From Proales similis (taxonomy: Eukaryota > Rotifera > Eurotatoria > Ploima > Proalidae): 64,000 nucleotides of DNA. Location: assembly GCA_019059635.1 (NCBI GenBank), contig JAGVRJ010000002.1:62001-126000 (forward strand). The letters are read 5' to 3'. The notes under the pieces are model-generated. The model saw only the letters and a program-made list of their open reading frames with translations. It did no database searches and was not told the DNA's origin. Below are positions 2 through 61,533 of this stretch, in pieces. The translations under genes and the position numbers were made by a program. Position 1 is the stretch's first letter. The number at the start of each line of letters is the position of its first letter.

Positions 2-556
2 TATGGAGAGGCTGTTTCGATTTGCTTTTGGAATGAACAAGAAAACTGGAAACCGTCCAGCTATGTAAACAAAATAGGCGAGAACTTACAGCGAGGACTT
101 CACACTCTATGTTTACTTGACATAAAGGTCAAAGAGAGGAACCTTGAAAACTTGATAAAGGGACGTAATATCTTTGAGCCTCCTCGATTCATGAGTGTTA
201 GTGAAGCTTGTGAGCAAATAGTCTCCATCATCAAAGAAATCAAACACAAAAGTTCTGCAGATGAGCCAGAAAGCGAGTACTGCGACAGAAAGCCTCTTAT
301 TCAACTAATCAATTCAGGAATTTTAAATGAAGAAACAATCTGCATCGGTCTAGCTCGAGTTGGCAAAGACGATCAAATGATTATCTGCGACTCGTTAAAA
401 GAAATGTGCAAACAGGATCTTGGTTCACCTCTTCATAGTCTAGTTATTGCCGGAAAGCTTCATCCAATTGAGATTGAATACGTAAGCATGTTCTATACTG
501 GAGAGAAGAACGAATTCAACAAATTGGTCGAGAAGCATAATAAAATCTGCTCCTAA
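2..556 (+). CDS. DPH5: Diphthine methyl ester synthase, 3' part (DPH5)
   Basis: This is the C-terminal 184 residues of DPH5, the SAM-dependent methyltransferase that builds the diphthamide precursor on a histidine of elongation factor 2. The reading frame is already open at the window edge, so the N-terminal half and start codon lie to the left. Family hallmarks are visible: GEAVSICFW near the edge, GLHTLCLLDIKVKE, EPPRFMSVSEA, CIGLARVGKDDQ and the C-terminal LGSPLHSLVIAGKLHPIE. No intron is needed in the visible part, and the frame ends at a TAA. EPRS follows on the same strand with its ATG 143 bp downstream. Identity rests on recognised family motifs; the 5' truncation is caused by the window only. 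Confidence 0.93.
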   Translation, partial: YGEAVSICFWNEQENWKPSSYVNKIGENLQRGLHTLCLLDIKVKERNLENLIKGRNIFEPPRFMSVSEACEQIVSIIKEIKHKSSADEPESEYCDRKPLIQLINSGILNEETICIGLARVGKDDQMIICDSLKEMCKQDLGSPLHSLVIAGKLHPIEIEYVSMFYTGEKNEFNKLVEKHNKICS

Positions 557-699
557 ACTCAGTTTATTATTCAGAACTAAAAAAGCAGACTACTGACCCA
601 GTATGCAAATTAATTTAATGAAACATTCGCAGAGATTCTTCACATTGATCGACGTTCTTTGATAATCTAGAATCTTAGCATTGAAACTTTAAAAAAAAA

Positions 700-4937
<4,238 letters not shown>

Positions 4938-5308: not shown

Positions 5309-8300
5309 ATGAAAACTTTCTTTAAAATATTGACTATATTAGGAATAGCTATATTCCTGACAACGAAATGCAATGCTTACAACAGCTATCAACAAGATCG
5401 TAAGAAAAAAAATATACAAAAATTGACATAAATCTAAAATCTAATATAAGAACTTAAAAGTAAAACAGTTGGACTACCTAAGAGCATTTGAACATCTGGA
5501 AACAGAACAAAATGATAAGATAGAATATTTTGAAGCAAAATTATATGCATTACAGGAAAATTTCAAAATAACCGAAGAACAAAACTTGAATATAATTTCA
5601 ATTCACTTGAGAAACTTATTGAAAACAACAAGTAATGATATATTATCACAATATATTCAAGATTTAAAAAACCAAAATGAAAATAAGACAAACATAAAAT
5701 TAAACAGAATCAAAGAATACATTTCGGAAATGAAAGAAGATTTGATAAAAATTGAAAAGAATGAAAAAACTAAAATCAAAAATAGACAAAAAAACGATAT
5801 GGAATACACAAGTGACGAAATACATCTAATAATAAAAACGATTTTGGACCTAAACTTGAAAAAACAAAAATATTTAGAAAAATGGATAGAAAAACTAGGT
5901 ATTTTTTCCAAAAAGGTAAATAAAGAATACATGGATAAAAAAATAAGATTTGCCTCATTCATAAACGATCAACCTGTGTATGGAAACAAGTTAAAACTAT
6001 TAGAAAAAAAAAATTTAATAAAAATATTAAAAGATGATAGCCAGTATCGAATTTTATTAGAAAAAGAACTACTGTATGGAAAGAACCTTATAAAAAGTCT
6101 CGATGAAAAAACAAAATCCGTATCCGAAAGTCTAGAAATGGCGAAAGAAATATTGAAAAAATCAGAATATAAAGAAGATAAACATTATGACAAAGCATAC
6201 TATATAAAAACAACCAAGAAAACCGAACCAACAGACGACGACACAACGACCAAGAGAACCAAACCCACGGACGACGACACCACCACCAAGAGAACCAAAC
6301 CAACAGACGACGACACCACCACCAAGAGAACCAAACCCACGGACGACGACACCACCACCAAGAGAACCAAGCCAACAGACGACGACACCACCACCAAGAG
6401 AACCAAACCAACAGACGACGACACCACCACCAAGAGAACCAAACCAACAGATGACGACACCACCACCAAGAGAACCAAGCCAACAGACGACGACACCACC
6501 ACCAAGAGAACCAAACCAACAGATGACGACACCACCACCAAGAGAACCAAGCCAACAGACGACGACACCACCACCAAGAGAACCAAACCCACGGACGACG
6601 ACACCACCACCAAGAGAACCAAGCCAACAGACGACGACACCACCACCAAGAGAACCAAACCCACGGACGACGACACCACCACCAAGAGAACCAAGCCAAC
6701 AGACGACGACACCACCACCAAGAGAACCAAACCCACGGACGACGACACAACGACCAAGAGAACCAAACCAACAGATGACGACACCACCACCAAGAGAACC
6801 AAACCCACGGACGACGACACCACCACCAAGAGAACCAAACCAACAGACGACGACACCACCACCAAGAGAACCAAGCCAACAGACGACGACACCACCACCA
6901 AGAGAACCAAACCAACAGACGACGACACCACCACCAAGAGAACCAAACCCACGGACGACGACACCACCACCAAGAGAACCAAACCAACAGACGACGACAC
7001 CACCACCAAGAGAACCAAACCCACGGACGACGACACCACCACCAAGAGAACCAAACCAACAGACGACGACACCACCACCAAGAGAACCAAACCAACAGAC
7101 GACGACACCACCACCAAGAGAACCAAGCCAACAGACGACGACACCACCACCAAGAGAACCAAACCAACAGACGACGACACCACCACCAAGAGAACCAAAC
7201 CAACAGATGACGACACCACCACCAAGAGAACCAAGCCAACAGACGACGACACCACCACCAAGAGAACCAAACCCACGGACGACGACACCACCACCAAGAG
7301 AACCAAACCAACAGACGACGACACCACCACCAAGAGAACCAAACCAACAGATGACGACACCACCACCAAGAGAACCAAGCCAACAGACGACGACACCACC
7401 ACCAAGAGAACCAAACCCACCGATGACGACACCACCACCAAGAGAACCAAACCAACAGACGACGACACCACCACCAAGAGAACCAAACCAACAGACGACG
7501 ACACCACCACCAAGAGAACCAAACCAACAGACGACGACACCACCACCAAGAGAACCAAACCCACGGACGACGACACCACCACCAAGAGAACCAAACCAAC
7601 AGATGACGACACCACCACCAAGAGAACCAAACCAACAGACGACGACACCACCACCAAGAGAACCAAACCAACAGACGACGACACCACCACCAAGAGAACC
7701 AAACCCACGGACGACGACACAACCACCAAGAGAACCAAACCAACAGACGACGACACCACCACCAAGAGAACCAAACCCACGGACGACGACACCACCACCA
7801 AGAGAACCAAACCCACGGACGACGACACAACCACCAAGAGAACCAAACCCACGGACGACGACACAACGACCAAGAGAACCAAACCAACAGACGACGACAC
7901 CACCACCAAGAGAACCAAACCCACGGACGACGACACCACCACCAAGAGAACCAAGCCAACAGACGACGACACCACCACCAAGAGAACCAAACCAACAGAC
8001 GACGACACCACCACCAAGAGAACCAAACCAACAGACGACGACACCACCACCAAGAGAACCAAACCAACAGATGACGACACCACCACCAAGAGAACCAAGC
8101 CAACAGACGACGACACCACCACCAAGAGAACCAAACCCACGGACGACGACACCACCACCAAGAGAACCAAACCAACAGACGACGACACCACCACCAAGAG
8201 AACCAAACCCACGGACGACGACACCACCACCAAGAGAACCAAACCCACGGACGACGACACCACCACCAAGAGAACCAAACCCACGGACGACGACACCACC

Positions 8301-11300
8301 ACCAAGAGAACCAAACCAACAGACGACGACACCACCACCAAGAGAACCAAACCAACAGATGACGACACCACCACCAAGAGAACCAAACCCACGGACGACG
8401 ACACCACCACCAAGAGAACCAAACCAACAGACGACGACACCACCACCAAGAGAACCAAACCAACAGACGACGACACCACCACCAAGAGAACCAAACCAAC
8501 AGATGACGACACCACCACCAAGAGAACCAAACCAACAGACGACGACACCACCACCAAGAGAACCAAACCAACAGACGACGACACCACCACCAAGAGAACC
8601 AAACCAACAGATGACGACACCACCACCAAGAGAACCAAGCCAACAGACGACGACACCACCACCAAGAGAACCAAACCAACAGACGACGACACCACCACCA
8701 AGAGAACCAAGCCAACAGACGACGACACCACCACCAAGAGAACCAAACCAACAGACGACGACACCACCACCAAGAGAACCAAACCAACAGACGACGACAC
8801 CACCACCAAGAGAACCAAACCAACAGATGACGACACCACCACCAAGAGAACCAAACCAACAGATGACGACACCACCACCAAGAGAACCAAACCCACGGAC
8901 GATGACACAACGACCAAGAGAACCAAACCCACGGACGACGACACAACGACCAAGAGAACCAAACCAACAGACGACGACACCACCACCAAGAGAACCAAAC
9001 CCACGGACGACGACACCACCACCAAGAGAACCAAGCCCACGGACGACGACACCACCACCAAGAGAACCAAACCCACGGACGACGACACAACGACCAAGAG
9101 AACCAAACCAACAGACGACGACACCACCACCAAGAGAACCAAACCAACAGACGACGACACCACCACCAAGAGAACCAAACCAACAGATGACGACACCACC
9201 ACCAAGAGAACCAAACCCACGGACGACGACACCACCACCAAGAGAACCAAGCCCACGGACGACGACACAACGACCAAGAGAACCAAACCCACGGACGACG
9301 ACACCACCACCAAGAGAACCAAACCCACGGACGACGACACCACCACCAAGAGAACCAAACCCACGGACGACGACACCACCACCAAGAGAACCAAACCAAC
9401 AGATGACGACACCACCACCAAGAGAACCAAACCAACAGACGACGACACCACCACCAAGAGAACCAAACCAACAGATGACGACACCACCACCAAGAGAACC
9501 AAACCAACAGACGACGACACCACCACCAAGAGAACAACCACACCAACAGATGACGACACCACCACCAAGAGAACCAAACCCACGGACGACGACACCACCA
9601 CCAAGAGAACCAAACCAACAGACGACGACACCACCACCAAGAGAACCAAACCAACAGATGACGACACCACCACCAAGAGAACCAAACCCACGGACGACGA
9701 CACCACCACCAAGAGAACCAAACCAACAGACGACGACACCACCACCAAGAGAACCAAACCAACAGACGACGACACCACCACCAAGAGAACCAAACCAACA
9801 GATGACGACACCACCACCAAGAGAACCAAGCCAACAGACGACGACACCACCACCAAGAGAACCAAACCAACAGACGACGACACCACCACCAAGAGAACCA
9901 AACCAACAGATGACGACACCACCACCAAGAGAACCAAGCCAACAGACGACGACACCACCAAGAGAACCAAACCCACGGACGACGACACCACCACCAAGAG
10001 AACCAAGCCCACTGACGACGACACCACCACCAAGAGAACCAAACCAACAGACGACGACACCACCACCAAGAGAACCAAACCAACAGACGACGACACCACC
10101 ACCAAGAGAACCAAACCAACAGATGACGACACCACCACCAAGAGAACCAAACCAACAGATGACGACACCACCACCAAGAGAACCAAACCCACGGACGATG
10201 ACACAACGACCAAGAGAACCAAACCCACGGACGACGACACAACGACCAAGAGAACCAAACCAACAGACGACGACACCACCACCAAGAGAACCAAACCCAC
10301 GGACGACGACACCACCACCAAGAGAACCAAACCCACGGACGACGACACCACCACCAAGAGAACCAAACCCACGGACGACGACACACTGACCAAGAGAACC
10401 AAACCAACAGACGACGACACCACCACCAAGAGAACCAAACCAACAGACGACGACACCACCACCAAGAGAACCAAACCAACAGATGACGACACCACCACCA
10501 AGAGAACCAAACCAACAGATGACGACACCACCACCAAGAGAACCAAACCCACGGACGATGACACAACGACCAAGAGAACCAAACCCACGGACGACGACAC
10601 AACGACCAAGAGAACCAAACCAACAGACGACGACACCACCACCAAGAGAACCAAACCCACGGACGACGACACCACCACCAAGAGAACCAAGCCCACGGAC
10701 GACGACACCACCACCAAGAGAACCAAACCCACGGACGACGACACACTGACCAAGAGAACCAAACCAACAGACGACGACACCACCACCAAGAGAACCAAAC
10801 CCACGGACGACGACACCACCACCAAGAGAACCAAGCCCACGGACGACGACACCACCACCAAGAGAACCAAACCCACGGACGACGACACAACGACCAAGAG
10901 AACCAAACCAACAGACGACGACACCACCACCAAGAGAACCAAACCCACGGACGACGACACCACCACCAAGAGAACCAAACCCACGGACGACGACACCACC
11001 ACCAAGAGAACACAACCCACGGACGACGACACAACGACCAAGAGAACCAAACCCACGGACGACGACACCACCACCAAGAGAACCAAGCCAACAGACGACG
11101 ACACCACCACCAAGAGAACCAAACCAACAGACGACGACACCACCACCAAGAGAACCAAACCAACAGATGACGACACCACCACCAAGAGAACCAAGCCAAC
11201 AGACGACGACACCACCACCAAGAGAACCAAACCCACGGACGACGACACCACCACCAAGAGAACCAAGCCAACAGACGACGACACCACCACCAAGAGAACC

Positions 11301-12791
11301 AAGCCCACGGACGACGACACCACCACCAAGAGAACCAAACCCACGGACGACGACACACTGACCAAGAGAACCAAACCAACAGACGACGACACCACCACCA
11401 AGAGAACCAAACCCACGGACGACGACACCACCACCAAGAGAACCAAGCCCACGGACGACGACACCACCACCAAGAGAACCAAACCCACGGACGACGACAC
11501 AACGACCAAGAGAACCAAACCAACAGACGACGACACCACCACCCAGAGAACCAAACCCACGGACGACGACACCACCACCAAGAGAACCAAGCCCACGGAC
11601 GACGACACCACCACCAAGAGAACCAAACCCACGGACGACGACACCACCACCAAGAGAACCAAACCAACGGACGACGACACCACCACCAAGAGAACCAAGC
11701 CAACAGACGACGACACCACCACCAAGAGAACCAAACCCACGGACGACGACACAACGACCAAGAGAACCAAACCCACGGACGACGACACCACCACCAAGAG
11801 AACCAAGCCAACAGACGACGACACCACCACCAAGAGAACCAAACCAACAGATGACGACACCACCACCAAGAGAACCAAACCCACGGACGATGACACAACG
11901 ACCAAGAGAACCAAACCCACGGACGACGACACCACCACCAAGAGAACCAAACCAACAGACGACGACACCACCACCAAGAGAACCAAACCCACAGACGACG
12001 ACACCACCACCAAGAGAACCAAGCCCACGGACGACGACACCACCACCAAGAGAACCAAACCCACGGACGACGACACCACCACCAAGAGAACCAAACCCAC
12101 GGACGACGACACCACCACCAAGAGAACCAAGCCAACAGACGACGACACCACCACCAAGAGAACCAAACCCACGGACGACGACACAACGACCAAGAGAACC
12201 AAACCCACGGACGACGACACCACCACCAAGAGAACCAAACCAACAGATGACGACACCACCACCAAGAGAACCAAGCCAACAGACGACGACACCACCACCA
12301 AGAGAACCAAACCCACGGACGACGACACCACCACCAAGAGAACCAAACCCACGGACGACGACACCACCACCAAGAGAACCAAGCCCACGGACGACGACAC
12401 CACCACCAAGAGAACCAAGCCAACAGACGACGACACCACCACCAAGAGAACCAAACCAACAGATGACGACACCACCACCAAGAGAACCAAACCCACGGAC
12501 GACGACACCACCACCAAGAGAACCAAACCCACGGACGACGACACCACCACCAAGAGAACCAAACCCACGGACGACGACACCACCACCAAGAGAACCAAAC
12601 CCACGGACGACGACACCACCACCAAGAGAACCAAACCCACGGACGACGACACCACCACCAAGAGAACCAAGCCAACAGACGACGACACCACCACCAAGAG
12701 AACCAAACCAACAGACGACGACACCACCACCAAGAGAACCAAACCCACGGACGACGACACCGCAACTAAGCCGGTTAAACCCAAGTTTTGA
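5309..12791 (+). CDS. Giant secreted repeat protein (about 2.47k residues), function unknown
   Basis: I do not recognise a family. Model: exon 1 5309-5399, intron 5400-5460, exon 2 5461-12791. Exon 1 encodes a signal peptide (MKTFFKILTILGIAIFLTTK, then CNA), so the product should enter the secretory pathway. Exon 2 starts with about 240 Lys/Glu/Ile/Asn-rich, cysteine-free residues that look helical or coiled-coil, then runs into about 182 tandem copies of TKRTKPTDDDTT and ends TATKPVKPKF. Each unit carries three basic and three acidic residues plus five threonines, so the array is net neutral, strongly hydrophilic and probably disordered. The threonines could be O-glycosylated as in mucins (inference). 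The N-terminal part is very AT-rich and the array is not. The start is chosen because it gives a signal peptide and an in-frame junction. The other frames over the array are open only because the unit is stop-free. Confidence 0.82.
6223..12775 (+). repeat. 36-bp coding minisatellite, about 182 copies
   Basis: Tandem 36-bp unit of the type ACCAAGAGAACCAAACCAAC followed by AGACGACGACACCACC, uninterrupted for about 6.55 kb. Phase is kept throughout: the only length changes I see are one +3 nt unit near 9535 and one -3 nt unit near 9957. Variation is mostly at a few sites (AAA/AAG, CCA-ACA versus CCC-ACG, GAC/GAT, ACC-ACC versus ACA-ACG) and almost all of it is synonymous in the coding frame. Longer blocks are duplicated: 10081-10440 matches 10441-10800 almost base for base (ten units). 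Thymine is nearly absent from this strand. Confidence 0.97.
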
Positions 12792-12926
12792 CTTTGAAAT
12801 TTCTTTTGAATTTATCATATAAATATAGTTATTTATCAAGTTTTTTCTAGCTTTTTTGAATTTTGTTAATTTTTTTTTGCTTCATCCTTGTTTAAATTGG
12901 TTCTCGTGTTTTCATTTTATTTCAAT

Positions 12927-15900
12927 ATGTCAGGGACTAGTATATCATATTCTATTTCACCCGCTAAGCCAGCTCAACATCGGAATCTTAATTCCGATGA
13001 GGATGCTATCCTTACCCTTGCACCATTTACAAAGCCACCAAAGATTAACTTTGGTAGCTGTCAACCTTTTCAGTCAATTCAACGTATTTTGCATATTGTG
13101 AATCCGCAAAATTTTGATCTTCAATTGGTTGTGTCAAACAAGGACCTTAATATTGATAAGCTTCAACTGTATGTTCCTGCGCTTACGAATGTTGTCTTCA
13201 AGATTAATTGGAAGCCAGAAAAACCTGACAACTATAAGTATACTATTCTTTTTGAGGTGTCTAATCAAGCTCGGCTCAAATTTTTGGTCCATGCATTTGG
13301 TGTCTGCTCTGCTCCGATCGCCAAGAAACGAAAGCCTCTTGGAATGCTTCAGCCAATTCGTTCTTCTGTCACGTCTCAGTCTAAATATCAGGCTATTTCT
13401 TCAGTTAATTCAGAGCACAAGGCATTTGTTAAATCGCAAATCTCAACTTTTAGTTTACAAGGGATTTGTAGCTCGGGAAAATCAACACATAGCTTTCCCA
13501 TCATACCAACTCCACGAAATGAGCTTCAATTGAATCAAGCTTATAGGCGGGAAACGCAGGTTATCTCACGAAATGAAAGCGATCGTCTTGCTGCAACTAT
13601 TACATCCGATAATACCTATTTTTCTAGCGAAGATCAAAATAGCTGCAATTTAGAAGGCTCAAAGAGTCAAATATCATATTCGAGCAGCATGAACCCAACG
13701 AATTTTAATTCAAGTCCTTCTTTCATTGACAAGACCGTGGTTATCGTTGCTGGTACTCAACCCGAACTTTTTAGAGAATCTAATAGAGAATCGCGCAGAT
13801 CAATCGACACAAGTTGTTCTCCTGGTTTGTCTTCTACTTTTCAGACTTGTCAATTAGCAAACGAAGCTGGGACAGATAAATATAACGCAGCGACACCTAA
13901 GCTTAGTGATTTTCTGAAAGCCAAAAACGTTAATCTTGATGATTCATTGGAATTTCTGAGACCTAAAAACGATTGTGTGCAAGAACAATTTACCGAGTTT
14001 AAGAATGAGAAAGTCAATAAGAATTCAGGTCCCTTAAGTGATCAGAACAATGTTTATAGTACCAATAATACTTTTTCTTACGATCAGAATTTGCTTAAAA
14101 TGGTACGAGTTTGTCAAAGAGCTTGGCGAGCAAAGTGTTTCAGGCGAAAGTGGCGTGAGTTTATTACCAACATGAGATTTGAGCAAATGGAATCTTTGTT
14201 GGCAAGCAGTAAGAGCATCGCTATGAGTCTTACTGAACTACACCGGAAGCATGAAGAGCTTCTGGAAAACCAGCTAGCCAAGAGTACACAAGAAGCTCTG
14301 TTGCTCGATGAAGAGAAAAAGAAAGAACAACAGCATGTTTTAGAATGTGTGATAAAATGCCAACAGGCTTATCGAATGAAGCGATTTAGATCACAATTAA
14401 AAAAGATAAAGCTTGATCAAGAACGTTTGAATATATCTGCACATCTTATCCAACAATGGTGGCGCTTGTTTGCCCGGCAAAGAATTCAATATCTTCGATT
14501 GAGAGAAAATACTCTTAGAATTCAACGAATTTACAGGGAAAAACAGCTAGCGAAAGTAAGAGCAGCGCTGCTTATTCAATCATATTGGCGAATGTGGAAA
14601 ATTCGTCGCCAATTCTTAACAACCAAAGTGGCAGCCATCACAATTCAAAGATGGATTCGAAGCCAAAAAGATCGTTTCTATTTCTTAAAGCTTAAACGCT
14701 CTCTTCCCAGATTCCAGCGAGCTTGTCTTCACTGGTTATCAAGACGCCAAATTGCAGCCATAAAGATTCAAAGGGCTTTACGATATTACAACTTTCGCAA
14801 ATCGATGCATAGATATAGGGAGGCTGCACTTAAAATTCAAAACTGGCACAAAGAGATTAGGGAACGCTTAAGCTTTCTCAAAACAAAAAGACTTGTATGC
14901 AAGCTGCAATGTGAATGTCGAGCTTACCTCGCCAGGAAAACTATGAAAGAAAGACGAGCTCAACATGCAAAGAATTTGGAAGAAATTGAAATTCGCAAAG
15001 CTCAAGAAAAGGGTGCGATTCTTATTCAGGCATATTGGCGCGGTTATTGCGTTCGAAAGTCTACTAATCAGATGCTGGAGAGTATTCGTGGCCGTTTAAG
15101 CATTTACGTTCAAACTGGAAGCAGCAGCTCTACGTTGGGCGCTCGCATTATTCACTCACTTAAGCTTCTGCGAACACATTCGGTCACTATACAGCAACTG
15201 ATTCAAGCACTAACTGATCTAGAAAAGGTGACTCGGCTTTCTCCCGAATGTTGCTTATTCTTCACCAATGAAGGAGCTCTCCACATCTTGTACGATTTTA
15301 TCACAAGCTGCAATAGAAGCGTGCCCCACATGGATCTTATTAAAATATGTCTTCAAGTTTTTATGAATTTGGCCAAGTACCATCGAACTGCGAGCTGCAT
15401 TCTTGATCCATGCAACTCGGTGAATATTCTCGCAGATCTTCTTCAGGCCTATCATACAAGCAATCCGAGTATTTTCATGGATACATGCGCTTTGTTCATA
15501 ATCTTAGCTCAAAATGCTGAAATCAAGGAACGTCTCATAGCTGAAGAGCAGTTCGTCAAGAAGGTTCAAAGCATATCTTCAGTCCTAGAACGAAGAGCAG
15601 CATTACGTCACAAAAACCAGAGCCAACTGCAAGGCAAATCAGGACTTACTTCTTCAAAAGAACAAGCAACGCCAAATACCGTTCCTTACAATGCGTCAGC
15701 TTCGGCATCTACAAAAAAGACTAATGTCTTGGTGTTCTCTTTAATCCCCGACTGGAGTTTGTGCAAAAATTCACTCGATGTGCGGCTTATTGAGCCAGTC
15801 GGAGCAATAGAATTTTTATTGAGTACATTGCAATTAGAAAGGCTAGAAATGAGCTTATACCAGAAGCAAACTCCTATGAAGATGATAAGCTCAAAGAGTA

Positions 15901-15995
15901 TGGAAACGCTATCTACTGGCAAGAGAACAAAACAAACTTGTTCGGCAAAAAACAATTCAAAATCTCAAAAATCAATTTTATTCGATAAGCAATGA
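12927..15995 (+). CDS. ASPM: ASPM/abnormal spindle-like protein without CH domains
   Basis: Spindle-pole and centrosome protein of the ASPM/Asp family, 1022 residues, encoded without introns. Order: N-terminal ASH (MSP-like) domain at about 25-110 (INFGSCQPFQ, IVNPQNFDLQL, FKINWKPEKPDNY); a Ser-rich linker to about 385; a run of IQ motifs at about 390-710 with the usual IQxxWR pattern (LIQQWWRLFARQRIQ, LIQSYWRMWKIRRQF); then an armadillo-like C-terminal region at about 720-960. Human ASPM and fly Asp carry calponin-homology domains between the linker and the IQ motifs; I see none here. The ATG at 12927 (MSGTS) is preferred to one 39 bp upstream, which adds a hydrophobic stretch unlike the family. 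The gene begins 136 bp after the repeat gene. Confidence 0.8.
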   Translation: MSGTSISYSISPAKPAQHRNLNSDEDAILTLAPFTKPPKINFGSCQPFQSIQRILHIVNPQNFDLQLVVSNKDLNIDKLQLYVPALTNVVFKINWKPEKPDNYKYTILFEVSNQARLKFLVHAFGVCSAPIAKKRKPLGMLQPIRSSVTSQSKYQAISSVNSEHKAFVKSQISTFSLQGICSSGKSTHSFPIIPTPRNELQLNQAYRRETQVISRNESDRLAATITSDNTYFSSEDQNSCNLEGSKSQISYSSSMNPTNFNSSPSFIDKTVVIVAGTQPELFRESNRESRRSIDTSCSPGLSSTFQTCQLANEAGTDKYNAATPKLSDFLKAKNVNLDDSLEFLRPKNDCVQEQFTEFKNEKVNKNSGPLSDQNNVYSTNNTFSYDQNLLKMVRVCQRAWRAKCFRRKWREFITNMRFEQMESLLASSKSIAMSLTELHRKHEELLENQLAKSTQEALLLDEEKKKEQQHVLECVIKCQQAYRMKRFRSQLKKIKLDQERLNISAHLIQQWWRLFARQRIQYLRLRENTLRIQRIYREKQLAKVRAALLIQSYWRMWKIRRQFLTTKVAAITIQRWIRSQKDRFYFLKLKRSLPRFQRACLHWLSRRQIAAIKIQRALRYYNFRKSMHRYREAALKIQNWHKEIRERLSFLKTKRLVCKLQCECRAYLARKTMKERRAQHAKNLEEIEIRKAQEKGAILIQAYWRGYCVRKSTNQMLESIRGRLSIYVQTGSSSSTLGARIIHSLKLLRTHSVTIQQLIQALTDLEKVTRLSPECCLFFTNEGALHILYDFITSCNRSVPHMDLIKICLQVFMNLAKYHRTASCILDPCNSVNILADLLQAYHTSNPSIFMDTCALFIILAQNAEIKERLIAEEQFVKKVQSISSVLERRAALRHKNQSQLQGKSGLTSSKEQATPNTVPYNASASASTKKTNVLVFSLIPDWSLCKNSLDVRLIEPVGAIEFLLSTLQLERLEMSLYQKQTPMKMISSKSMETLSTGKRTKQTCSAKNNSKSQKSILFDKQ

Positions 15996-32016: not shown

Positions 32017-32953
32017 TGGCGCCAACAACTCTTCATTTCCCAATCAGACAAGAGGACAGAATTAGTTTAGTCTGAAGGATGAACCTTGCCGTAGCCCGTT
32101 TTGAATCTTATTACCAACCATACTATACGCTGTTATGAGTTTTCTTAATATTGTTTGCACGCCAGACATTTGATGAAGCGCATTAATTTAAAGAAATTTC
32201 GTTTGCCTCTAAATAAAATTATCCATGCAAAAGGCACAAGGATAGTTGCGCCTTTCTGCTTATATTTACAGTGAGCATAGTTGACTTTGAGCTGACTGGG
32301 AAAAGTATTTTTATCGAATTTATTGGTCGAGTGACGATAGGGGTGAAAATACTTTGAATTCATGAGAACAGGGATAAGAGGCTGATTGCCGAGAAATTTG
32401 ATGAGAATTTTCTCCCCTAGAGCAGAGCGCCAGAACATGGCCTCATTTAAATGTGTCGAAGTGAACAGACACCGTGTGGGTGTGAGTTGGCGCTTATTTA
32501 AAGCCGAGCTAGTTCAGAGCGAGTAATATTCGCAATTCATGTTTGTCTATCAGCATTGCCAGGCTCAGTCCTTTTTCTATTCTCGGCTATTCATGCGTTA
32601 AGAACGCCCACGGTTCTACCTAGGAGCGAGACGGGAAGAAGCAAGCTCGTACAAAGTCAGTGCTTGACGTTCAGTTCTTCTTTATGGAAAAAGGCGCATA
32701 ATTCGAATTGACAAAGCACATATTATGAATAAGGCATATTTGGCGAAGCATTCTTGAACGCTTGCATTCGTTGGTCCGTATGAATTATCATGTTGGCATA
32801 TAGTCTATGATATCTCCAATTGTTAAATTCGTTTCCTTGTCACTTTAGTATCGTCTTCATCGCCATTTCATTTTAATCTAAGCCCTTTAGACAATGAGAT
32901 TTGTTTGGAAATAAGAAAATATGGGTTCAACTTTAATGCTAAACTAACCAGTT
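32017..32953 (+). other. Intergenic, 937 bp
   Basis: 3' flank of TVP23 and upstream region of the first MARCH gene. The only sizeable minus ORF (32145-32438) shows no domain-like features. No repeats or RNA genes seen. Confidence 0.45.
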
Positions 32954-33748
32954 ATGGCTGATAGCGCCAGTGTAACGCGTGAATTTCTGGTCGGCGGAAA
33001 GGCCCATGATCAGAATGAATGCCTCATGATCGAACAGCAACAGCAGCAAAATCAAAAGAGCAGTTCAAATGACTCGGACGACGACAACTCGAGCATTTCA
33101 AGTCCATCTAGTGGTCTCATGTGTAGAATCTGCCATTGTGAAGAGACAAGCGAAGAGTATTTATTAACTCCATGCCGTTGCACCGGCACCTTGCGTTATG
33201 TTCATCAAGCATGTCTCCAGCAATGGCTCAAAAGTACTGGCATGAAGTCGTGCGAGCTCTGCAAATACGAGTTCGTCATGCAGACCAAAATAAAATCGCT
33301 TAAAAATTGGGAAAAATTGGACATGAACAATGTAGAACGACGCAAAGTTCTATGCTCAGTGGCTCTTCATGTAATCTCACTGACTTGTATCATCTGGTCC
33401 CTATACGTACTCATTCAAAAGACAGCACACGAGCTAAACGCAAAAAGCTTCGATTGGGCCTTCTGGGCAAAGCTAGTGGTTGTGGCTATCGGTTTTACTG
33501 GAGGCGTGGTGTTCATGTATATACAATGTAAACTCTATCTTCATTTGTGTATGCGATGGCGCCAATACAATCGAGTAATAATAATTCAGCCATTTGATGG
33601 CGACAATTTGAAAAAGAAAGCAAATCTGGACGACGAGCCCTCCAGCCCTGGAGAGAATCTCGCGCTCATCACAGACAGTAAACAACGCCCAGTCTCTAAC
33701 GCACCTCTTACCCAACCTGACACAGTCCTAAATATTGGCCAAGTATGA
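32954..33748 (+). CDS. MARCH8: RING-CH E3 ubiquitin ligase, MARCH1/8 type (copy 1)
   Basis: Membrane-bound E3 ligase that ubiquitinates membrane receptors for endocytic turnover; 264 residues, one exon. After a Gln/Ser-rich N-terminus, the C4HC3 RING-CH finger sits at about 55-105: [28 protein letters not shown], then CELCKYEF. Two transmembrane helices follow (about 128-150 and 172-196), then a cytoplasmic tail starting [12 protein letters not shown]. Order and spacing match MARCH1/8. The same strand carries a second copy at 35396 with the same layout and the shared IQPFD motif. Which of MARCH1/8/11 it is closest to cannot be settled by eye. Confidence 0.9.
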
Positions 33749-51371: not shown

Positions 51372-54300
51372 ATGAACGTGGCTGAGATGGCAGGCAATGC
51401 TGAAGCGGCCGTCTACAATCCGGCTCTAATCCAAGAGCAGTACGTTCCTCTATCTACGATTTTGGACACGGCCATTCAGCGGACTTATCATCAGCTCATA
51501 ATCATGATGGACATGTGAGTAAAACCCGTTGATTGAACTTGGAAGAAAGTGTTCATGAATTGTTCAGGTTCCCGGAAACGAATGACCGAGACAGGTACAT
51601 ACAGATTGTAGCGAGCAGTCAGCTTTACAATAGAAAATTATGATCATGCTTTACACTAGGAAAACAAAGTTGATCACCTTTGCATGCAAGACGCGACAGC
51701 TCTTCATCCGCATCTATTCACTGGTCAAATTCATTCGTTCAGCGCACATAAACGTTTCGGTAAATTTCGGCAAATTAGCCTTGCATGAATTATGTTTCTG
51801 ATTTTGATGCCTTGTTGTAATTTAAAAGAATATCATGTCATTTCTTGAGCAGCAATCGTTCATATTTGTAGACACAGCCGATTTTCTGTTTCATCTTGCA
51901 CGCGAGAAACTTGTGAATGCGAGGTGCGTTGAGTTTAATACAGGGGCACTGGTGGCGTTGGTTAGTTGATCGGATTTAAGATTGCCAAGCTACTCAATAT
52001 TGACCGCAGTCGATGTACTTACCTTGGGTACCTACACAAAAATGCCAGCATGCGTAAAGGTAGACAAATTCTACAAAAATTTCTGTGTTAACATATTAAG
52101 CGCCAAGGGCACTCAAGGAACGCATCGTGCCAACCGAGCCGATTGAGGACGAGGATCGGCAAAGAACCTTAGCAAGCCTGAATAGAATAATTCAATGTCG
52201 CCTGGCGCTTTCTGAGCTGCCGAGTCGGATGCGTGATTTTAAAATCGGTGCCCGTCTAATCTTGGCACATTCGCCATTGCAGAAATTTAATTACTCGTGT
52301 TCTAGAGCACGGTTTTGTCCGCTTTCGAGTGGCTAATGAATTCGAAGCGATGCTCACACTGATGGGCGACGATTTTAAAATGCCCTGGCGACTCCTACGC
52401 TTGAAAATTCTAGTCCAAGATGCTCAGGATCCAAGTAAGACTTGGGCTGCCCTCAGTTTCTCCTTAGTCCAACGGCTAACCCCACACAGATCAAGCGCTT
52501 GTTCATGAGCTTCAAATCAATTATATTCATCAAATTGTACAGCAGCGACTTAATGAAAATGCTAAGCCTCTAGTGGAGCTCTACAAATCAATACGTAAAG
52601 ATCTTATTGCTCAAAACGAATTTGAACATTTAAAATAAGCTTCTTGCTATCATTCCAGACTTTTTCGCTCAGTCACTTCAACTTGAAGTCCTCTATCAGC
52701 AGGTGATTTGAGTTTTGCAATTTCATGAGGCTTCAATTCAATTTACCCGACATGCCTGAAAAATCAAGATGAATCAATTGAACAGATTCACATTCGGTCG
52801 ATTTTATAAAATCGCTGAGTACAACAACTGGAAAAAGCTCACGGTCAAGTATTGGCTCGAGTACTCGCAGAGAAATCAATACGGTAACTGTCTACCGACA
52901 ACTATTCGATTTATTTCGATTTTCAAACGAATTTGCAAACATGAAAAGACTTTCGCTTCACGGTTGCTACTCATGAGTCGAGCGACTACTTGGCCACAGT
53001 TCATTACCCGCCAATCAATTGGCGGGATCACAAGCAAATAGACTCGATACTTCGCGGTGATGAGCTGCTTATCGAGAAGCTTGTTTACGAGACTGTCCAA
53101 TTGCGCTCGATTCGTCGTCTTCAGGTAAACAGTTTTCATCTTCCATTATTTTGTTGGCCAACTCTTCACCGAGTGAAAATATTCGAAAGGATTTAATGCA
53201 AGTGTTTCAATCGGTTCCATGTTGTCGAGGTAGAATGACTGAAAAACTCATGTTTGATTCGGCAGAGTTTAGAAGCTAATCACAAATCTAGTCACATTGA
53301 TAACGGACAAGCCAGCGCTAAAACTTGAATTCGCCATCAGTCAGCTTGAGTCCCATTGCATCCTGATCCAAATCGACTTTTATTCAGGCCTTTACCAGTT
53401 GCATATTCCTCATGGAGGAACTGGTGAGACTGAAGCTCTCATCTGATTGATGTCATTAATCACTGATAAAATTTTAAGTCAATAATCTGAAAGCATTGAT
53501 CGAGCAGTGCATCAACACCGATTCGGAGAAATTGAACTCGCACCTTGGACGATTGAGGTGGGCTGATTTGGTCGTGCTCGTTTGTACTTTACAATAGAAG
53601 TGATATTTTGAAATTGAAGAATTTTGCTTTTGCTCAAACGATTTGAAGCACTTTGCGAGCAACAGGGACTCAAATGCAGCAGCGAGCTGTTTGTGAGTGC
53701 TTACGAGCACGAAAAGCTGAGAGAGAATTACAATGAAATTGTGGCCGAACGCATTTATATTCAACTAAAGAACTGCGAGAACAGAATGATTGTAAGTAAA
53801 TTTGAATTCTCAAATGGAATTGTTTTGACGAATTCGGACACACTGACTAGATGATAACTGTTCATCAAGAAGAAGAGAAAAACGAACTCTTGCCTACCCA
53901 GCCAGTTTCTATTTGGCTCAGAGTGAACTACTACATTTTGTCTTTGGGCAAGTGTCGCTTCGATGGCGAATTAGACGCCAACAAGCCATTTATTAAGCTC
54001 TTGAATATGGAGCGAGTAGAAAAGAACGAGTATTTGTTGAGTGAAAAGCGTAGCCGGCAGCCATGTGTGCGGGCCTTTTTGAGGACTCTGCTGCAGCTTA
54101 TGGAACAGCTCTCATTCAACGGTCTCGCAACAGTCCTGAACGCTAACGATTTTGTTAGCCAAGAAGTAAAACTGGGGCTCAACGACGCATTCAAATTCGA
54201 TGGAGTGAGTCTTCTCACTCGGCCCAGTTTGAGTGCTCGCGACCAGACCGAGTTTGAATATGTGCAAGAAATGAGCGACGAGCTTTGGAGCTCCTTGCTC

Positions 54301-56949
54301 ACTCTGATTATACGGCCCAAACAGTTCAGGGATTATTTGAACACGGCTCTTCCTGTGCTCCAATTTACTAAATCGCCGCTGCAGAGTTATCAGAGTCGAT
54401 TTACGCTCATGCTTGAGTTTACATTCAGCAGACGGCTGCTACAAGCTGACAATGATGAAAATGAGAATCTGCTTGACGTGCACGCGATTTCGGTTCAATC
54501 GTACAATTTAGAGCAACTGTGCGATCTGATTCAGACCGAATGGGTTGCCATGTGTCGAATGTACACTTTGATCAAAGAAGTTAAAGCGACACTCAGCCGA
54601 TATCCTGAGTTCGCAAAGCAGTTCAGAGTGAAACGAGCCACCTTTAAGAGTCTAGTGCTCAAGTACGGACCGGCATTTTCATACACTATTGAGTTTAGAT
54701 GGTCCAAAGAGCAACGTTTGTTCAACATATTTCTGGGCGTCGATAGATTCAAGTCGCTGCGCACCCAAATCGACAATCCACTCGTAAACTATCATTTCTT
54801 TTTCATTCATGAGATAAAGAAATTCTTCCGCCAGGATCGATCCGTAGTCAATCTGGTTCAAATGCTCAACTGCACTTGTGTGTGTGCCTACGCTTTGTTC
54901 AAATTGAACAATTTGCCCAAGTTCTATTCGAAGCCCGGCTCGCAAGCCGTCCACACTCTGCCTGGCTACATGATGGTCATTTATTCGATGAGTCACTTTA
55001 AGATATTTTATTATTCTCGGTATTGCGTCGAAATCCGAGTCGAACAAAACGGCTTGGTGTCGGTGCGCGATGCCGCTTTTCTTCTCACCGATATGAGCAG
55101 TGTACTGGAAGACATACATCCAATTCAGAACTTGAGCTCGTTTGTAAATTTGTTTGTGGATGAAAATGTGAACGAGCTGCTCAAGAGACAAAGATTTGAT
55201 GTGGACGATGAGTATCCTTCGACGCCCTCTCTGAATTCAGTTGGAGCAAATTTGACTCAGTCTCAGCCAAGCGTCGGACCGCCTTCAAACCAGCACGTAT
55301 TCCTGCCACCCACCTCACCGGCCGTGCAGCCACGTTTGAACACGTCAATTACAACTCCGTCGCCGGCACCAAGCTACTTTGCGCAATCACCTGCGCCGAG
55401 TTCAAATCTGCCAGCCAGCGCCCAGTCGCCCAGTTTTCCGAATTTCGGATCGCCTGCCATCTCCCACACGTCGCCTACTCTGGGCAGTCAGCCCATGGGC
55501 CATGGTCAGGGCGCGGCACCGATTCAATCGCCGACCTCCTACATGTCGCCGGCCCCTTCGAGCCAAATGGCTGCCACTTCTCAAAATTATTCTATTCAAT
55601 CGCCAGCTAACTTTATGGACATTTCTATGCCCAGTCCTGCCCAGCCAAGCTCCGTCCAGACTCGTTCGCCGTATATTGGGCCCTCTCCAAGCACTAATAT
55701 GCCAACTCCCGGCTATTGTATAACAAAGGACAGTCTGGAAGATCAAACGAAATCGTTCAATCAAAAGCCAGCGAGTCAAAACTCAGCTCAAGCCAGTGTT
55801 CAAAGTTCATTGGGTGCAAATCAGCCGCAGAAAAAGTTCAAGTCTGTAGTGTTGCCCATTCATGTGACCGACGTTAGTTTCGTCAAAATGATCCGAGTAT
55901 CAAGCGAGGCTAAATGCTCGCCTCTAGAGGCGTTCTTAGCCTCTAATCATATGAGACGAGTGATGCTAAAAGAGATTCAAATCGATCAACAAAACGTAAG
56001 TGTTGATAAAAGCGCTATTTAATTTTCCTTTGAGCTAAGAGATTAAATGTTGCCTAGTACGCGCACAAAAATTTTGAAACGAGCTACTTCAAAACTGCGC
56101 TTCTCGAATTTCAAATTCAACAAGAGATAAGCGCAGCATACAACGCATTTTCTCTGATCATAAATCCGACCAACGAAATACCGACCGACTCGATTCAGAA
56201 ATATTTCAATAGCCGAATATTGGCGTACCCATATCGCTCAACTAGTTTAATCTCATTTCTCAACATTCTCACCTTGGCCGACATGCGAATGCTCAAGGAC
56301 ATAACGCAGCTGTTTGACTATGAAATGGTTTCACATTTTTCTTTTTCAAACATTTTTCACGATTATCGGACTATGGCATGAAATGTGCTTTCGATGTTTT
56401 TAGAATCCGAGTTATTTCAATTTTCAATGGCGCTTGAGATTCGTATGGACCGCATATCACAACTACATTGTGAAGAACGCTCGTTCGCCACTCATTCCGC
56501 TGTACCTGGGCTCGCCGTTGGGATTTCAAAGACGCGACAAGACTTACTACATAACGGTATGATCCCAGTTTGACTTGAGAAAAGAGGCCATTTATAGCTG
56601 ATAATTGGGCTGTTTAAGCTTGAGATAATCAATCAGAATCGTGCACATCAGCAGTCACTTGCAACCATCAGCATATTATTTGCCTACGATCCAACAAGCA
56701 ACCTGATTCAATTTGAGCTGTTAAAGCCTTTGAACGACAATAGCCCGGTTTACAATCAATACGAAATTTTTCTCAGCAAAATAATCGGCAACAAGCAAAA
56801 AGGTAATTTGACTATAGCAACAAACAATAAGCTGGCCAATAGACGATAATTTTGATGTTTATCTAGACGCGGCCAACTTATCGTTATTGGGCGTTGTCTA
56901 CGATCTACTTACCCAGTTGCCCACCCAAGTCAACCCATCGCACGGCTAA
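51372..56949 (+). CDS. MED14: Mediator complex subunit 14 (MED14)
   Basis: Scaffold subunit joining head, middle and tail of Mediator for RNA polymerase II transcription. The gene has many short exons (first ones 51372-51514, 51568-51594, 51660-51759, 51829-51923, 51981-52059) and one large exon (53851-55995). Matches run the full length: TRQLFIRIYSLVKF, MSFLEQQSFIFVDTADFLFH, LPSYSILTAVDVLTLGTYTK, ERIVPTEPIEDEDRQ, FRVANEFEAMLTLMGDD, PWRLLRLKILVQD, the central beta-rich part, CVRAFLRTLLQLME, FVNLFVDENV, a Pro/Ser/Gln-rich linker (about 55200-55760) and the C-terminal LKWRLRFVWTAYHNYIVKN-like region, ending PTQVNPSHG. The exon joint between 52059 and about 52108 is phase-inconsistent with GT-AG as I read it. 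Estimated length is roughly 1,450-1,500 residues. Confidence 0.93.
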
Positions 56950-59400: not shown

Positions 59401-59472
59401 GAGCATTTCGCGTGAATTCCTCTTCATCTGTTCTTTTTTTGACTTGGCTTAGAAGTTGCTCGCAACGCTAGT

Positions 59473-61533
59473 ATGGTTATTCACAAAGTCGACATGTTCA
59501 AGGACATGGGCAGCTCGCAGCAGCAAATGCATCACCTCAGCCAGCAGCAGAGCACGCCGCTGCCACACCAGCCAATTTCGATCAAACTAGAAGACAGAGA
59601 TCTCTGGATGCGTTTTTTCGGCAAAACCAACGAGATGATCGTCACCCGATCAGGACGGTAAGTCCCAATTCGTTCAACTCGCACGTGTGCCACAAACATT
59701 CAACAATTCGACGCATTTTCAGCAACATGTTTCCAGTGCTCAAAATTAGCCTATCTGGTCTTGACCCGAGCTCAATCTACGAGGTCATTGTTGACTTCAA
59801 GCAAATCGACAACCACAAATGGAAGTACATTAACGGCGAATGGCAGCAAGGAACAAAGCCAGATCCAGTTCAGCTCAAGTGCGAGTACAAGCATCCAGAC
59901 TCGCCTAACTTTGGATCGCATTGGATGAAAGACAGCATTTCATTCAACAAAGTCAAACTCACCAACAAGCCGCCTAACAAGGGCCAGATTCAGTTGAATT
60001 CACTTCACAAATACGAGCCGCGAATAATTGTGTTCAAGCTAAATGCTAACATGCGTGAAAAGGTCGCCGAGACTAGCTTTCACGAGACCCAATTTATTGC
60101 CGTCACTGCCTATCAGAATGAAGAGATAACTTCGCTCAAGATCAGGTACAATCCATTTGCCAAAGCCTTCCTCGACGTACGCGATCGGTAAGTCGATATT
60201 TAAGTCTAAAGCCATTGGTCTCAGCACAGACACTTATTTTATTCCAATTTTAAAGGCCCCACGGCGAAGGAGTTGACGAGCTTGGCGACGATGCCAGAAT
60301 GCAGCTGGGAATGAACTGTAAGTTTTTCATTTGATCGGCGCCAATATTCAGCTTTCTTGACGATTAACAACCTTTTAAGTCAGCGGATTCTACAATGGTT
60401 CTCTGATGAACCACGGCTCGATTGGCCCAAGCGATGTCGGATTTAATGAAACTCCTTATAACCAGTTTGCATATCAGGCAAGCAAAGAACTGGTCGACCT
60501 CAAGAATTATGTTTTGCCCAACTCGTCGAGCCAACGGAGCACTGCAGGCGCCGATAGAGCCCGAAGCGGTGTCAGTTCGCGTAGAGCAGCGCCCTATTCA
60601 ATGCCGTACAATTCGCAATCAGCCTTCAGCAATGAGCCTGATGCCAGTCGACACATTTCTTCCTCGTCACCTCTGTCCGCCTCTTCGACAAGCTCAAATT
60701 CTTCAATGAGCTCTGCATGTGTTGCTTCAATCAATCAGCATCTCCTAACGCCCAATAGCCTCTTGAGTCCCCATCCGATGCTTGGTAGCGGTAGCCAGAC
60801 AGTCGACCCCAACAACCCGAACGCATATGGCACTTCGAGTCTGGATAACTGGAACATGCTAACTCCGAAATGTGAACCTGGCCAACTAAGCACATGTCTT
60901 CAGATTGCATCCTCACCAAGCATGGACCCTTGCACCTCATCTCCACTTGCCGCCACCACCTGCACAACTCCGAGCTCATATTTGACCAGTAGTTCTCCAT
61001 CGTACGGCACTCCCTCCACTCCCTACTGGTCTAGCAAATCCTACTTTCTGAATTCGGGCCCAAGCTCTGCTCATCATCATCAACAATTTTCAAATTCAGC
61101 CAACTATTCTAACTACGCGGCGGTCGCTGCGGCTGCAATGGCTGCCTCAAATTTTTATCCTAATCCTATGCTCACCAATCAGAGCAGCCCATCACCTTCA
61201 GTTTACGGCCAGAATTACTCTTACAATTCATCCTCATCATCATCATCATCGTTCTATGACTCCACAAATAACGTTCTCCTTAATCATTTAACAGTTGCAG
61301 CAAATAGCACATCACCAATTGGGTCAAACGAGGCCAAGAGCAGCGACAGCTCAGAAGGCCTGGATTGCGGCAAGGCATTGAGAGGCGCGTTGGGTTTAGA
61401 TTCGTCATCGGTTTGCGCAAACGACAGCGGGTTTCACTCTCCTCGAAACGAGTTGAAAAGCACCTGTTCTCCGGCTCTGCTAAAAGCGGGTGAAAATGAT
61501 AGCAGCGGCCGAAAGGGCATATGGAGCGCATGA
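59473..61533 (+). CDS. TBXT: T-box transcription factor Brachyury
   Basis: Sequence-specific activator of hindgut, notochord or mesoderm programmes, depending on the phylum. Exons 59473-59657, 59723-60187, 60256-60317, 60380-61533; sum 1866 nt, 621 residues. The T-box begins at about residue 40: [131 protein letters not shown]. The C-terminal half is Ser/Thr/Asn/Pro-rich with [10 protein letters not shown] and LDNWNMLTP, echoing the SPY and DNW motifs of Brachyury tails. No introns occur in the last 1.15 kb. The N-terminus before the T-box is Gln/His-rich ([11 protein letters not shown]). Confidence 0.96.

Follow-up and report, generated by a model that had tools for sequence, protein, structure and literature searches.

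A gene of Proales similis, a tiny marine monogonont rotifer of about 0.1 mm, encodes a predicted precursor of 2,473 residues, in which a signal-like peptide is followed by a Cys-free domain and an array of 182 units of 12 residues, with charges arranged in alternating blocks of +3 and -3. It is rather probable that the product is a bulk-secreted polyampholyte of the mucin or glue type; its secretion, glycosylation, self-association, gland of origin and use are features that we infer from the translated sequence. The gene lies at positions 5309-12791 on the plus strand of the window, that is, the whole stretch of 64,000 nucleotides that was analyzed.

Exon 1 (5309-5399) begins with the ATG at 5309 and contains the signal-like peptide and the start of the mature protein. 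The signal-like peptide, MKTFFKILTILGIAIFLTTKCNA, has 23 residues, with the cleavage site chosen by eye. A predicted phase-1 intron of 61 bases (5400-5460), recognized from sequence only, follows with GT..AG borders (GTAAG...AAAAG), and an alternative in-frame acceptor ends at 5484 (frame worked out by hand). The exon 2 part of the N-terminal domain (5461-6212) is rich in Lys, Leu, Glu, Ile and Asn, Cys-free, and has a GC content of 24%. The 182 units, of 36 bases each, form an array at 6213-12761, according to the bounds of Tandem Repeats Finder, and the C-terminal tail TATKPVKPKF comes after the last DDD (12759-12788), followed by the stop codon (12789-12791); all these features are located on the plus strand. 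The mature protein has a mass of 279.6 kDa, as computed from the translation, and contains no Cys, the single Cys of the precursor being in the signal-like peptide. The gene bounds, the intron, the signal peptide (as a signal-like sequence) and the Cys-free N-terminal domain of the initial annotation were thus recovered. The assembly was sequenced by PacBio (PMC11954553), and the searches of the species' own genome covered its 15 contigs and 32,716,893 bases.

The gene is flanked upstream by a gene similar to Glu/Pro tRNA synthetase (EPRS; window positions 2-4936, named partly by eye) and downstream by an ASPM-like gene with ASH and IQ motifs (12930-15995). Further along the window, a MARCH-type RING gene (32948-33748), a Med14-like exon just under the Pfam cut-off (53851-56022) and a T-box exon (59472-60191) were located. 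For the MARCH-type gene, the best organism-named match among the best 120 of 354 was from Brachionus plicatilis, with 63% identity; 16 matches without an organism name ranked higher. A search for the COX1 family in the P. similis genome gave no match.

In the array, Tandem Repeats Finder detected a period of 36 with 181.9 copies and 94% matches over 6213-12761, and the count by protein is 182, as the roughly 182 copies of the initial annotation had it. At the protein level, 173 of the 182 units are identical (TKRTKPTDDDTT). The variants comprise three units ending in TL and six others that occur once each, the first and the last unit being among these. A standard unit is composed of five T, three K/R, three D and one Pro, with neither Ser nor Gly. 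Over its 2,192 residues, the array contains 908 Thr (41%) and 8% Pro, and in single 100-residue segments the Ser+Thr content reaches a minimum of 39%. Half of the residues are charged and arranged as +3 and -3 blocks; with 545 K/R and 547 D/E, the net charge is -2, which agrees with the neutral array of +3/-3 units with five threonines initially described. The segregation of charge is high (approximate kappa of 0.42 with blob 5 and 0.29 with blob 6) and was above 500 of 500 shuffles both times. As a reading of the sequence, the earlier description of a secreted, near-neutral and very hydrophilic repeat protein is supported.

The length differences between units always amount to whole codons. 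A block of nine units recurs in its order of unit types, and such a recurrence was matched or exceeded by three of 1,000 shuffles. This fits a growth of the array by unequal exchange, despite the fact that adjacent units resemble each other no more than expected by chance (identity of 0.15 at lag 1 vs 0.18).

The mature N-terminal domain, composed of the end of exon 1 and of exon 2, has 258 residues, 45 K and 6 R among them, and a net charge of +7. It is present in a single copy, matching only itself in the P. similis genome. Database searches with this domain, as proposed in the initial annotation, returned no significant match. In detail, all matches in the Pfam scan of the N-terminal 284 residues were below the cut-off, NCBIfam gave no match for the domain, and none was found among the PDB sequences at E 1. 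Two protein searches were equally negative at E 1: the one with a 341-residue query, which scored the 7,986 candidates with the most words in common and in which repeat words may have displaced other candidates and candidate lengths were limited, and the one with the segment 7-256 of the full-length ORF among 2,172 candidates. The domain may therefore be called an orphan within the reach of these searches. The initial annotation had given it about 240 residues, which is near the size found, and had considered it helical. The latter should be regarded as a guess, because the single-sequence AlphaFold2 model, almost all helix, has a mean pLDDT of 54.6 and is not trusted, and hydrophobic residues show no excess at spacings of 3, 4 and 7 residues (z of 0.30, -0.23 and 0.46).

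The composition changes abruptly within this one gene: the N-terminal domain has a GC content of 24% and the array one of 55%, with T nearly absent from the plus strand of the latter (AT skew of 0.96-0.98 in 1-kb blocks from 7001 to 12000). The GC content of the window is 42.8%, and that of the assembly is given as 45.5%. A codon index was computed with nine stretches of the P. similis genome as reference, five from tubulin and four from actin. The reference itself scored 0.692 and the array 0.538, followed by seven flanking exons with 0.358 and the N-terminal domain with 0.229. In simulations, 3.7% of the units based on the usage of the flanking exons and 88% of the units based on the reference usage reached the array value. 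Codon use in the array is mixed: Arg is encoded by AGA in 181 of 181 codons, and AGA makes up 6% of the Arg codons in the reference genes. The index of the array thus lends weak support at best to a possible high expression, and that of the N-terminal domain points the opposite way.

The openness of the array is in itself no argument for coding, because the repeat leaves several frames free of stops on both strands. The variation between units was analyzed in 179 of the 182, without the tail unit and two others whose length had changed. It consists of 16 distinct variants in 275 variant cells, which cannot be counted as independent because units are copied from each other. In the sense frame, 265 of the 275 cells and 10 of the 16 distinct variants are synonymous, where about 26% would be expected; the seven variants present in at least four of the 179 units are all synonymous. 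The protein sequence of the repeat unit is under constraint. This pattern, together with length changes only in whole codons, speaks against an expanded minisatellite lying in an ORF that is rarely or never translated, and so does the sense frame upstream of the array, which continues through 256 AT-rich codons without a stop (5445-6212, of which the first 16 bases belong to the predicted intron), compared with a longest open stretch of 112 codons in 2,000 dinucleotide shuffles. Such a minisatellite would, on its side, agree with the short homogenized repeat and its recurrent nine-unit block, and with an orphan domain of 24% GC, a codon index of 0.229 and no relatives found; we consider it improbable. 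One antisense frame, which would encode a repeat of VVSSSVGLVLLV, is nearly equal to the sense frame in its variants (264 of 275 cells and 9 of 16 distinct variants synonymous) and has the higher codon index (0.639 vs 0.538). However, its ORF (6200-12811) lacks a Met and is little longer than the array itself, whereas the sense frame connects the array to the long upstream open stretch and the signal-like exon. The sense strand is preferred because of this context, and coding on the opposite strand is very improbable.

With the sense frame accepted, two other kinds of secreted product compete with mucus or glue. The first is a structural coat protein, whether of cuticle, egg shell or glycocalyx, or else a secretion of male accessory glands; the signal-like peptide and the long repeat would suit it equally well, and PMC13403294 describes male rotifers as having prostate-gland secretions by which mates may be bonded. 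On the contrary, the chain offers no Cys for cross-links, its N-terminal 284 residues contain no Pfam domain above the cut-off, and no feature found points to eggs, integument or males, so that this explanation seems unlikely, if less so than the others weighed here. The second is a peptide precursor, in which convertases would cut after each Lys-Arg and release the decapeptide TKPTDDDTTT in 172 identical copies, along with a few variants. It is kept because of the 180 Lys-Arg pairs of the array, which on cutting would give the 172 identical TKPTDDDTTTKR, as opposed to none in the N-terminal domain, and the signal-like peptide would serve it too. Nevertheless, about one pair would be expected by chance in that domain (45 K and 6 R; calculated by hand, with K at 2.5-17% of residues), and the conservation of Lys-Arg is uninformative since nearly the whole unit is conserved. 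A glycine for amidation before the dibasic site is common, though not universal, in multi-copy peptide precursors; here Thr precedes Lys-Arg in the unit, and the product would lack any hydrophobic or aromatic residue. To our knowledge, the copy number is also far above that of peptide precursors. If this improbable reading were true, the gene would rank as exceptional in copy number among the peptide precursors of animals.

By the operational definition given in PMC2515642, which asks for Ser+Thr above 25%, prolines, and many repeats of at least 10 residues over more than one-third of the length, the P. similis protein counts as a mucin: its mature form has 38% Ser+Thr and 7.6% Pro, and repeats make up 89.5% of it. 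The mucin-like proteins of Drosophila described there have the same high Ser/Thr content, prolines and long repeats, and several of them are likewise without known domains. Unlike those mucins, as far as that source describes them, the P. similis unit is half charged in +3/-3 blocks and contains no Ser, and its glycosylation is presumed.

A similar layout is found in the Drosophila glue proteins Sgs1 and Sgs3, which are described in PMC6352337 as having a signal peptide, long Thr-rich tandem arrays and a phase-1 intron near the start, with fast change and restricted relatives, as here. The differences lie in the arrangement and composition. The intron of Sgs1/Sgs3 interrupts the signal peptide, whereas that of P. 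similis comes after it; the extra segment is C-terminal in Sgs1/Sgs3 (about 120 residues in Sgs1 and 50 in Sgs3, compared by description) and N-terminal in P. similis, where the tail has 10 residues; and the Sgs1/Sgs3 repeats are dominated by Thr and Pro, whereas half of the P. similis unit is charged (PMC6352337). The protein, then, resembles the Sgs proteins by analogy of layout, and homology is not claimed. A signal peptide with a long Thr-rich array is an already known design, as described for the Sgs glue proteins (PMC6352337). What is unusual relative to the known systems compared is the 12-residue unit, balanced, block-charged and near-invariant, together with the number of its copies and the N-terminal orphan domain. 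The earlier statement that no family with this architecture is known holds in that the searches gave no relative for the N-terminal domain, but it has to be modified in view of the mucin definition (PMC2515642) and of the Sgs1/Sgs3 layout (PMC6352337).

In rotifers, the secreted biopolymer Rotimer is reported to have a predicted SCO-spondin component, R-SSPO/1, and Euchlanis dilatata to have uncharacterized disordered proteins with a repeated STTRPTGTT, one of them of 284,572 Da with 18 copies (PMC12154537). This source is internally divided, as its discussion places the STTRPTGTT proteins in all biopolymer samples and its abstract gives the peptide as absent from Rotimer. The Euchlanis proteins resemble the P. 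similis one in being rotifer proteins with a Thr-rich repeat, and the size given for one of them is comparable (284.6 kDa vs 279.6 kDa for the mature protein here). They differ, by description, in the unit itself and in its number, with 18 nonapeptide copies against 182 units (PMC12154537). In the P. similis genome, the STTRPTGTT repeat had no match at E 1, and an invented TTTTKP repeat had none at E 0.001, both searches being made without a positive control.

A VWD search of the genome gave 29 matches in several places. One of them adjoins an SCO-spondin-like gene on the minus strand of contig 15 (872500-882000), with a long ORF at 647-4051 of that stretch; in the stretch inspected around a VWD match on contig 5, no Thr-rich array was present. 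The two peptides that were published for Euchlanis R-SSPO/1, DSSNDL and PNCRDGSDE, both occur in the contig 15 gene, together with Thr-rich arrays of the GTTT type. The DNA of this gene includes two 12-base tandem arrays, and in its long ORF Pfam recognized C8, TIL and six stretches of the LDL-receptor class A type. Because of these peptides and matching domains, P. similis probably has the Rotimer SCO-spondin. R-SSPO/1 itself is described as Cys-rich with VWD, C8, TIL and LDL-receptor domains (PMC12154537), whereas the array of the present protein is Cys-free and its N-terminal 284 residues have no VWD or LDL-receptor class A match in Pfam. Similarly to R-SSPO/1, it is a proposed part of a secreted rotifer polymer, and the P. 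similis gene with the R-SSPO/1 peptides of PMC12154537 also bears Thr-rich arrays. The contig 15 gene may provide a setting for the array protein, whose tie to Rotimer is by analogy only. Another likeness is to the rotifer mate-recognition proteins MMR, described in PMC3495898 as monogonont proteins with a signal peptide and near-identical repeats that are kept alike within the gene. However, MMR is a globular glycoprotein, in which a full repeat measures 261 or 276 bases (87 or 92 residues) and occurs one to nine times (PMC3495898), in contrast to the 12-residue unit here.

The mucin- or glue-type polyampholyte is favored because a signal-like exon, a long in-frame domain and the array stand together with the synonymous pattern of the variants. 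Agreement with the mucin definition of PMC2515642, the charge segregation and the codon index of the array add to this, as do, by analogy, the Thr-rich repeat proteins reported from E. dilatata biopolymer samples (PMC12154537) and the contig 15 gene. Counted against it are the lack of Cys and of a known assembly domain, the half-charged unit so unlike Sgs1/Sgs3, the mixed codon use and the STTRPTGTT repeat without a match in the genome. In this favored explanation, the signal peptide would direct the chain through the ER and Golgi, and many of the 908 array threonines may be O-glycosylated to give a long hydrated chain. The alternating +3/-3 blocks would allow reversible binding between chains and to surfaces, with the chains remaining soluble and hydrated in sea water, and a block-charged polyampholyte of this kind might phase-separate into a glue that tolerates sea water. 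The N-terminal domain would pack, assemble or anchor the chain, and the product would be part of mucus, foot-gland glue or an exuded filament. Among the roles initially proposed (mucus, glue, cuticle or egg-coat material, or protection in drying), mucus or glue is the best-supported class, although the role itself is one that we infer; no feature was found that speaks for or against protection in drying.

The array is a clear case of a coding minisatellite, in which the DNA varies and the protein sequence is held. If the favored explanation is true, an animal of about 0.1 mm would build a material from a near-perfect repeat with balanced blocks of charge. The sequence is simple, and synthetic peptides would allow its adhesive or hydrating behavior to be examined. 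With a probe or antibody directed at the unit, the gland could be located, which would provide a molecular handle on the mucus, glue or exuded filaments of rotifers.
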